Assembly: GCA_027307335.1 (NCBI GenBank)
Contig: DAHUXD010000034.1
Location: 1-64,000 of the forward strand
Length of the DNA: 64,000 bases
Source of the DNA: Acidobacteriota bacterium
GTDB taxonomy: Bacteria; Acidobacteriota; Thermoanaerobaculia; UBA5066; Gp7-AA6
Direction: 5' to 3'
Part shown: positions 30,851 through 32,713 of the stretch, in pieces
Layout of the letters: every line of letters begins with the position of its first letter
Numbering within the stretch: position 1 is the stretch's first letter
The notes under the pieces: generated by a model
The model's database searches: none
The model's input: the letters and a program-made list of their open reading frames with translations, nothing else
Told to the model about the DNA's origin: nothing
Program-made: the position numbers and the translations under genes

Positions 30851-32713
30851 ATGAGAAGAGCGGTCTACTCCGGCATCCGTTGGGCGGCCGACACGCTGTG
30901 GAGCGTGGCGCGCGCGGTGGATCGCCGGTTTCCGGAGGGAACGGTCCAGCCGAAATGGGCGCCGGCGCCGCTCCTGAAGCAGCGCGAGAAGACCTTCCCG
31001 CCTCTCGGTTTCCCGCGCCAGACCGACTCGCTCTGTCCTCGTTGCGTGACCGAGGTCCGCTCCCAGATCCTCTCCGGAGAGGCCGACTGGAAGGTCTTGA
31101 TCGAGGGCAAGCCGGGCGAGATCCCGGCGTCGATCGTGGAGGAGGACGGGCGCATCCTGATGAAGAAGGACTGTCCCCGCCACGGCCACTTCGAGGACGT
31201 CATGTCGACGGACCCGTCGTTCTTCCGCCGCCTCGAGTCCCTCTATCCCGGGCGGGATTTCGTGATCCCGAAGGACGGCCTGCACGAGCACGGAACCTCG
31301 TCCATCAAGTACGGCCGCGGCGCGGTTCTCACGATCGACCTGACCAACCGCTGCAACATGATGTGCGACCCGTGCTTCATGGACGCCAACCAGGTCGGGT
31401 ACGTCCACGAGCTCGAGTGGGAAGACGTCCAGAAGCTCCTCGACGACGCGGCCTCGATCAAGCCCCGCCGGCAGCTCTCGGTGCAGTTCTCCGGCGGAGA
31501 GCCGACGCTTTCGCCGCACTTCTTGCCGGCCGTCCGCTACGCCCGCAAGCTCGGCTACTTCTCGGTGCAGTGCGCGACCAACGGCATCCGCTTCGCCCAG
31601 GACGAGGCGTTCGCCCGCGAGGCGGCCGAGGCCGGCCTCCGGTTCGCGTACCTTCAGTTCGACGGCGTCGGCAACGAGAAGAACCAGCACCGCAAGGTCG
31701 GCAACCTCTACGACGTCAAGCTCCGGGCGATCGAGAACCTGCACAAGCACGGCATCGACGTCACGCTGGTCGTGACCATCGTCAACGGCATCAACAACGA
31801 CCAGGTCGGCGACATCATCCGGTTCGGCCTCGAGAACATCGACAAGGTGACGTGCGTCGCGTTCCAGCCGGTTTCCTTCACCGGCCGCGACGAGGACATC
31901 GACGACGAGACCCGGGCGCGCCAGCGGTACACGCTGTCGCACCTGGCCCACGACGTGAAGAACCAGGCGGGCATCGGCGAACCGATGCGCGACTGGTATC
32001 CGCTCTCGGCGGCCGGCCCATTCTCCGACCTGAAGGACCTGCTCGGGGGGCTCGAGGCCGACTTCGGCTCGTTCAAGTGCGGCTGTCACCCGAACTGCGG
32101 CATCGGCACGCTGATGCTCGTCGAGGAGAAGACGAAGAAGGCCGTGACCGTGCCGTCGGTGCTCGACGTCGACCGGCTCATGGCCGACATCAAGTCCGTC
32201 ACCGACTCCTCCCGCGCGAAATTCTGGACGGCCGCGCAGGTCGGGCTGTCCGTCCTCCGCAACCTGCGGCCCGAGGGGATTCCAGCGGGCCTGACGCCCT
32301 GGAAAGTCGCCAAGGTCATGGATGGGCACACGGGCGGCAAGCTCGGATTCACGTCGAAGAAGCGCGACGACTGGCGCATCTTCTTCATCGGCGGGATGTG
32401 GTTCCAGGACCTCTTCAACTACGACTTCCGCCGGACGGAGATGTGCATCATCCCGTACGCGACGCAGATGGGGGAGATCTCCTTCTGCGCGTACAACACG
32501 GGCGTCGGCTGGCGGAAGATCATCGAGGAGATGTTCCAGACGGCGTCGCTCGCCGAGTGGTACAAGAAGAACGGCCGCCACGACGTGTACGCGCGGGGAC
32601 GCAACGTGCCGCTGCCGGTCCTCCCGGGTCAGACGGTGCCGGCGATGCCGATGGCGCCGCGCCCCGCGGCCGCGGCCGCGAAGAGCCTGCTGCCGGTGTA
32701 CGGCGGGAAATGA
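30851..32713 (+). CDS. Radical SAM protein resembling tetraether/membrane-spanning lipid synthase (Tes/MSS, MJ0619-like)
   Basis: A 620-residue protein. The radical SAM motif CNMMCDPC is CX3CX2C (Cys168, Cys172, Cys175) inside TIDLTNRCNMMCDPCFMDAN, followed by SVQFSGGEPTLSP. An N-terminal metal site is formed by LCPRC (Cys62, Cys65) and KKDCPRHG (Cys108), and later cysteines occur in KCGCHPNCGIGT and in MCIIPYATQMGEISFC. This layout (CPxC...CxxHG before the SAM core, then a Cys-rich auxiliary region) matches the MJ0619 family that includes tetraether lipid synthase, which joins lipid tails by C-C bonds. The specific function is an inference. The ATG at 30851 was preferred over a GTG at 30815 because GGGGAAG stands about 10 bases upstream. 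It is a single gene, convergent with a helicase. Confidence 0.8.
   Translation: MRRAVYSGIRWAADTLWSVARAVDRRFPEGTVQPKWAPAPLLKQREKTFPPLGFPRQTDSLCPRCVTEVRSQILSGEADWKVLIEGKPGEIPASIVEEDGRILMKKDCPRHGHFEDVMSTDPSFFRRLESLYPGRDFVIPKDGLHEHGTSSIKYGRGAVLTIDLTNRCNMMCDPCFMDANQVGYVHELEWEDVQKLLDDAASIKPRRQLSVQFSGGEPTLSPHFLPAVRYARKLGYFSVQCATNGIRFAQDEAFAREAAEAGLRFAYLQFDGVGNEKNQHRKVGNLYDVKLRAIENLHKHGIDVTLVVTIVNGINNDQVGDIIRFGLENIDKVTCVAFQPVSFTGRDEDIDDETRARQRYTLSHLAHDVKNQAGIGEPMRDWYPLSAAGPFSDLKDLLGGLEADFGSFKCGCHPNCGIGTLMLVEEKTKKAVTVPSVLDVDRLMADIKSVTDSSRAKFWTAAQVGLSVLRNLRPEGIPAGLTPWKVAKVMDGHTGGKLGFTSKKRDDWRIFFIGGMWFQDLFNYDFRRTEMCIIPYATQMGEISFCAYNTGVGWRKIIEEMFQTASLAEWYKKNGRHDVYARGRNVPLPVLPGQTVPAMPMAPRPAAAAAKSLLPVYGGK

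Follow-up and report, generated by a model that had tools for sequence, protein, structure and literature searches.

A Tes-family radical SAM protein that lacks the N-terminal [4Fe-4S] ligands, a candidate membrane-spanning lipid enzyme of Acidobacteriota

Gene locus and context

The stretch of DNA analysed here (the window, 64,000 nucleotides) harbours on its forward strand a gene for a radical SAM protein of 620 residues (Table 1), which an earlier note had put forward as a candidate membrane-spanning lipid synthase. The coding sequence runs from an ATG at 30851 to a stop codon ending at 32713. A GTG at 30815 is also in frame; close homologues have a Met aligned with the ATG, and a purine-rich, Shine-Dalgarno-like stretch lies ahead of it. 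Residues 2-26 are modelled as an amphipathic helix with a hydrophobic moment of 0.68, possibly a membrane anchor. The 4.37-Mb genome, which is 96.5% complete, yielded no other Tes-like gene, the three further matches to the query being weak and partial (E 2e-6 or worse). The nearest named relative, at 81% identity, is from a metagenome-derived genome with the title Acidobacteria bacterium gp7 AA6; the window thus comes from a soil bacterium, a member of the Acidobacteriota of this kind.

No lipid gene lies beside the gene, whose neighbours encode an FAD-dependent oxidoreductase, a DEAD-box helicase and a cyclophilin. The oxidoreductase gene (DAO family, 29604-30731) is directly upstream on the same strand, and it is a neighbour in close relatives only. 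Beyond close relatives, no conserved partner was found next to homologues of the window type. Gene-neighbour evidence for a lipid role was dropped, the neighbours being uninformative on lipids.

Table 1. Features of the gene for the Tes-family protein in the window.
Feature	Coordinates	Strand	Evidence
Purine-rich Shine-Dalgarno-like stretch 5' of the ATG (putative)	30830..30842	+	Sequence reading
CDS, clade B Tes-family radical SAM protein, 620 aa	30851..32713	+	ORF, profile, tree
N-terminal helix, residues 2-26 (predicted)	30854..30928	+	AlphaFold
Rubredoxin-like metal site C62, C65, C108, H111 (MJ0619 C9, C12, C33, H36)	31034..31183	+	Alignment; ligands from PMC9433317
LHEHGTS, residues 144-150, in place of the MJ0619 [4Fe-4S] motif C73-X3-C77-X2-C80...H83	31280..31300	+	Alignment
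Radical SAM cluster motif C168-X3-C172-X2-C175	31352..31375	+	Pfam, alignment
QPVSFTGR loop, residues 339-346; Q339, S342, R346 (MJ0619 Q268, S271, R275)	31865..31888	+	Alignment, PMC9433317
CGCHPNC; C416 (MJ0619 C338) aligned as ligand of the C-terminal [4Fe-4S] cluster	32078..32098	+	Alignment
M516 (labile ligand Met439), then clade-specific W517 (His in Tes)	32396..32401	+	Alignment
C532...C546 stretch	32444..32488	+	Alignment

Family assignment

Pfam delineates a radical SAM domain at residues 164-325 and an N-terminal zinc-ribbon-like domain, named HMPTM zinc ribbon, at residues 54-119; there is no Pfam match to SPASM. The top NCBIfam match is to Tes (NF045702), with 335.7 bits over residues 57-564, and the second is to TrsS (NF045646), with 220.8 bits. 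Neither score attains the cut-off of its model, which is 450 bits for the curated Tes equivalog and 490 bits for TrsS. In the HMM comparison called for earlier, Tes is the best match by a wide margin, and equivalog rank is missed. A sequence search of the PDB returned MJ0619/GDGT-MAS (7tol) first (E 2.8e-70), and the window protein is 32% identical to MJ0619. An AlphaFold model built from 47 clade members (pLDDT 84.8, pTM 0.88) has the overall fold of 7tol (TM 0.87 by target length, E 4.4e-38). In the fold search, 7tom and 7tol came top (TM 0.86-0.87 by target length); the runner-up, MoaA, reached 0.53. Profiles, solved structures, fold and the tree described below all bear out the proposed membership in the MJ0619/Tes superfamily. 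The window protein is best read as a member of the Tes family that is not a Tes equivalog and is one auxiliary cluster short.

Metal sites and active-site residues

In MJ0619, C9, C12, C33 and H36 form a rubredoxin-like site, C73, C77, C80 and a His bind an N-terminal [4Fe-4S] cluster, the radical SAM motif is CX3CX2C, and a C-terminal [4Fe-4S] cluster has Met439 as a labile ligand, Tyr459 also being conserved (PMC9433317). We aligned residues 15-493 of that protein with 29 bacterial Tes proteins above the cut-off (clade A) and 85 homologues of the window type (clade B). The Cys pattern reported earlier is present in full, as C62/C65 (CPRC), C108 with H111-G112 (CPRHG) and C168/C172/C175 (CX3CX2C), and the C-terminal half, for which at least five Cys had been announced, has six (C335, C410, C412, C416, C532 and C546). 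As C62, C108, H111, C168, C172, C175, C410, C412, C416, C532 and C546 are 100% conserved over the 85 homologues, and 84 of them also have C65, the one exception having Ser, this pattern is not due to chance. C335 and C241 are not conserved. The N-terminal mononuclear metal site that had been anticipated corresponds to the rubredoxin-like C62, C65, C108 and H111.

The two clades part at the N-terminal auxiliary cluster. None of the four N-terminal [4Fe-4S] ligands (C73, C77, C80 and the His) is found in clade B (0 of 85), whereas clade A has all four (29 of 29), a difference that had escaped the earlier note. An invariant LHxHG[ST][ST] motif occupies the position of the lost cluster in 85 of 85 clade B proteins, a few having Ala at the C80 column. 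The two His of this motif might bind a metal. By alignment, from which the cluster-ligating Cys are assigned, C416, C532, C546, M516 and Y536 of the window protein correspond to C338, C455, C470, Met439 and Tyr459 of MJ0619. All of these, like the radical SAM Cys residues, are kept in all 85 clade B proteins. Of the extra clusters that had been expected in the plural, the C-terminal one therefore retains its ligands and the N-terminal one has none. C410 is an additional Cys, invariant in clade B and common to its sister sequence L117. In the QPVSFTGR loop, the equivalents of Q268, S271 and R275 are present, which in MJ0619 contact or close over 5'-deoxyadenosine (PMC9433317). Beside the active site, all sampled clade B proteins have the fixed changes H440W, M442Q, A107M and N108D (MJ0619 numbering). 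Since the Y459F, Y459L and M439A variants of MJ0619 retain activity (PMC9433317), Met439 and Tyr459 mark the family but do not prove catalysis. We regard the sequence facts on the window protein as firm.

Phylogeny of clade B

A maximum-likelihood tree was computed from 56 rows, with 10 TrsS-like rows as the outgroup and one archaeal row. Clade B is a single group (100/100) nested inside bacterial Tes, and MJ0619, bacterial Tes and clade B group apart from the TrsS-like rows (100/100, with the one archaeal row). The earlier note had asked whether the protein might group with radical SAM enzymes whose known function is a different one; checked against the TrsS-like family, it does not. Sister to clade B (100/99) is L117 (G396:C17), which has C410 and retains the ligands of the N-terminal cluster. 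In the simplest reading, the N-terminal cluster was lost once, on the clade B stem. As its N-terminal ligands are still present, L117 is a possible evolutionary intermediate, its placement being less sure because it is itself a long row. Clade B has a long stem, with 1.03 changes per column. Long-branch attraction is an unlikely cause of the nesting, since it would draw clade B to the outgroup and not into Tes.

Distribution among genomes

At 1e-20, the Tes model matches 226 of 396 Acidobacteriota genomes, 38 of them above the cut-off. Most among the matches listed score about 310-350 bits, which is the clade B range, whereas clade A proteins score 470-620 bits; identity to MJ0619 is 29-35% for clade B and 40-47% for clade A. 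The records that contain clade B bear titles or class names of Acidobacteria subdivisions 1, 3, 4, 6, 7 and 22. The class names were assigned to subdivisions on what we presume to be their equivalence, the records being Acidobacteriia and Terriglobia for subdivision 1, Sulfopaludibacter for 3, Pyrinomonadaceae, Aridibacter and gp4 for 4, and gp6 for 6. Surveys have found iso-diabolic acid in subdivisions 1, 3, 4 and 6 (PMC13274423). In line with the suggested link with Acidobacteria, clade B occurs in subdivisions that make this lipid, a co-occurrence read from record titles and genomes and not strain by strain. In one sampled genus (g91), 7 of 7 genomes have a gene for the FMO bacteriochlorophyll protein, which within this phylum is the mark of Chloracidobacterium. 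All three of its genomes in the phylum survey match the Tes model, and the one that was read (L138) bears the clade B signature; iso-diabolic acid is among the lipids of Chloracidobacterium (PMC12816986).

The largest sampled family is f21, where a Tes-family gene is present in 101 of the 110 good genomes, mostly with clade B scores. Within the window's class, the gene is limited among the sampled families to the window's own order, save for L117 and TrsS-like proteins, and family f8 of that class has no Tes-type gene, although it was not counted as a proven non-producer. Outside the phylum, 11 of 141 sampled Myxococcota carry it, including the Polyangia Sorangium, Minicystis and Polyangium. 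Further TrsS-like paralogues, some in tandem, were seen in Sorangium, Polyangium and one member of Acidobacteriota (L125-L131 and L134).

Nine genomes of family f21 have clade B and true Tes genes on one contig, at distances that range from less than 1 kb up to about 11 kb. Among these genomes, one consists of a single contig of 5,650,368 bp, and in two (G265 and G560) the genes are adjacent on the same strand. These genomes are related and do not represent nine independent events. In loci L152 and L153, where clade B adjoins true Tes on the same strand, the pair is possibly a two-gene unit. Several further genomes have both genes on separate contigs. By eye, no obvious lipid pathway was seen around or between the two genes in this family, the neighbours coding for a MutY-like glycosylase, a redoxin, a peptidase and others; several ORFs of the interval are antisense shadows.

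Proposed function

We consider it probable, with moderate confidence, that the window gene encodes a bacterial Tes-type enzyme that couples lipid tails. This reading is based on homology, fold, the retained ligands, the loss of the N-terminal ligands, the nesting within Tes and the co-occurrence with producers; the score below the equivalog cut-off and the absence of an adjacent lipid gene were counted against it. In the proposed mechanism, the radical SAM cluster (C168, C172, C175) would cleave SAM to generate a 5'-deoxyadenosyl radical, which would abstract a hydrogen at the methyl terminus of an iso-branched phospholipid acyl chain. The C-terminal [4Fe-4S] cluster (C416, C532, C546, M516) would then hold the carbon radical so generated, as has been demonstrated for MJ0619. 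A second activated tail would attack the carbon held there, and the C-C bond so formed would yield a membrane-spanning chain of the iso-diabolic acid type. We infer the lipid substrate, the tail-to-tail product and the ester linkage. Judging from the sequences, substrate or reaction may have shifted in clade B, given the missing auxiliary cluster, the changes adjacent to the active site and the long stem. A broader and more tentative proposal, to which we give somewhat less than even chances, is that clade B is the general iso-diabolic acid synthase of mostly aerobic Acidobacteriota and of Polyangia, where it would have gone unrecognised. It would couple unactivated tails with one auxiliary [4Fe-4S] cluster, and the N-terminal Tes cluster would be dispensable for the chemistry.

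DUF2229, which we take to be a marker for Ger/PlsA, was undetected in the window's genome (96.5% complete), the T. maritima control being positive. For this reason, and as judged by the Ger/PlsA route to ethers, an ester-bound product of the iso-diabolic type fits better than brGDGT or another tetraether. Of the two products named in the earlier note, iso-diabolic acid is thus favoured in an ester-bound form, and brGDGT appears less likely. BcrAD_BadFG matches were considered as a Ger with two activation domains and rejected, because they lie in what seems to be a gene cluster for an ATP-dependent benzoyl-CoA reductase. This locus (G000:C38; L137 4380-10783, minus strand) comprises a BcrAD_BadFG pair, two benzoyl-CoA-reductase-like subunits and an enoyl-CoA-hydratase-like gene. 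Read by eye, it looks like a cluster for anaerobic aromatic degradation in the window's Acidobacteriota.

The coupling of ether lipids only, with a true brGDGT as the product, is improbable. Archaeal Tes acts on diethers, and bacterial homologues have been proposed for brGDGT synthesis (Zeng 2022, PMC8941075), likewise for Solibacter (PMC10087280); against this, the genome has no DUF2229, and its sole BcrAD_BadFG matches are in the benzoyl-CoA-reductase-like locus. Less improbable, albeit still unlikely, is a Tes-derived enzyme that acts on long hydrocarbon chains but performs another reaction or uses another lipid, such as intramolecular ring closure, cross-linking or the coupling of a non-glycerol lipid. 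The long clade B stem and the fixed changes beside the active site are in keeping with it, as are the presence of clade B in Polyangia and that of true Tes near clade B in some f21 genomes, which makes a division of labour possible. However, neither the 5'-deoxyadenosine loop nor the metal-binding residues at the coupling site have changed. Moreover, Edaphobacter aggregans, which has a single Tes homologue of 32% identity (PMC8941075), contains 26.4% iso-diabolic acid, and other tested Edaphobacter strains 12-30% (PMC11354219). That identity is within the clade B range (29-35%) and outside that of clade A (40-47%), although it refers to a different reference sequence and is only indicative.

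A radical SAM enzyme acting outside lipid metabolism, either TrsS-like or engaged in the pterin methylation formerly attributed to MJ0619, would account for the name of the N-terminal Pfam domain and for TrsS as the second NCBIfam match. We hold this to be as improbable as a strictly ether-coupling enzyme. The TrsS score is 220.8 of 490 bits, the tree separates the TrsS-like rows, and the TrsS-like L115 and L116 do not have the Cys of the C-terminal cluster, the Met or the Tyr, all of which are retained in clade B. The pterin role was not corroborated, the pocket of MJ0619 being hydrophobic and filled with lipid (PMC9433317). Least probable by far is a membrane-spanning lipid synthase (Mss) of the Thermotoga type, even though the same reaction is proposed for Mss and its models are reported to have the architecture of Tes (PMC13274423). 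T. maritima has no Tes-model match at 1e-20 and a generic-level one at 1e-15, whereas the window protein matches at 1e-100. The founding Mss is said to have been described from that organism. The window protein is therefore probably on the Tes side, as judged by matches to the Tes model.

Significance

Reconstructions of past temperature and pH make use of brGDGT-type lipids, yet the acidobacterial enzymes behind these lipids are unsettled. The acidobacterial brGDGT pathway has been called unclear, and as of 2025 none of the bacterial Tes homologues was biochemically confirmed (PMC11868695). That bacterial Tes homologues make such lipids is an idea already published (Zeng 2022, PMC8941075); in our literature search, of partial coverage, no description of the missing N-terminal cluster was found. 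Clade B is a good candidate for the membrane-spanning lipids behind this widely used climate proxy. Its signature, with LHxHG replacing the N-terminal cluster, CGCHPxC and GMWFQD, provides a concrete gene and a marker for finding producers. Clade B also represents a natural experiment on the role of the N-terminal Tes cluster, which was left open in the work on MJ0619 (PMC9433317), and our reading predicts membrane-spanning lipids in cultured Polyangia.

Comparison with known systems

With Tes/GDGT-MAS (MJ0619, 7tol/7tom, NF045702), the window protein shares the fold, the rubredoxin-like C/C/C/H site, the CX3CX2C motif, the Cys of the C-terminal auxiliary cluster, Met439, Tyr459 and the QPVSFTGR loop. 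Unlike MJ0619, it has no N-terminal [4Fe-4S] ligands, possesses the extra Cys410, has W instead of H after Met439 and ends in a C-terminal tail; its identity is 32% and its score is below the cut-off. Its N-terminus is longer and includes a helix, whereas MJ0619 has just 8 residues ahead of its first metal Cys. Clade A, the bacterial Tes proteins, is of the same lineage, encloses clade B and is its near neighbour in nine genomes, but differs by its four N-terminal cluster ligands and its scores of 470-620 bits; its identity range matches that of the Koribacter and Solibacter homologues, 40-42% (PMC8941075). L117 resembles clade B in having Cys410 and differs from it in the N-terminal ligands that it keeps and in its long branch. 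Mss of Thermotoga and Bacillota is alike in proposed reaction and reported architecture (PMC13274423), yet the Tes model at 1e-20 misses T. maritima. TrsS (NF045646) has a similar radical SAM core and Cys-rich N-terminus, but L115 and L116 are devoid of C-terminal cluster ligands. Finally, the GMGT synthase Gms (PMC11186832) creates C-C bonds between lipid chains by radical SAM chemistry, as we propose for the window protein. Gms is of the SPASM type with two fully Cys-ligated auxiliary clusters, whereas the window protein has no SPASM match and by fold is far closest to Tes.
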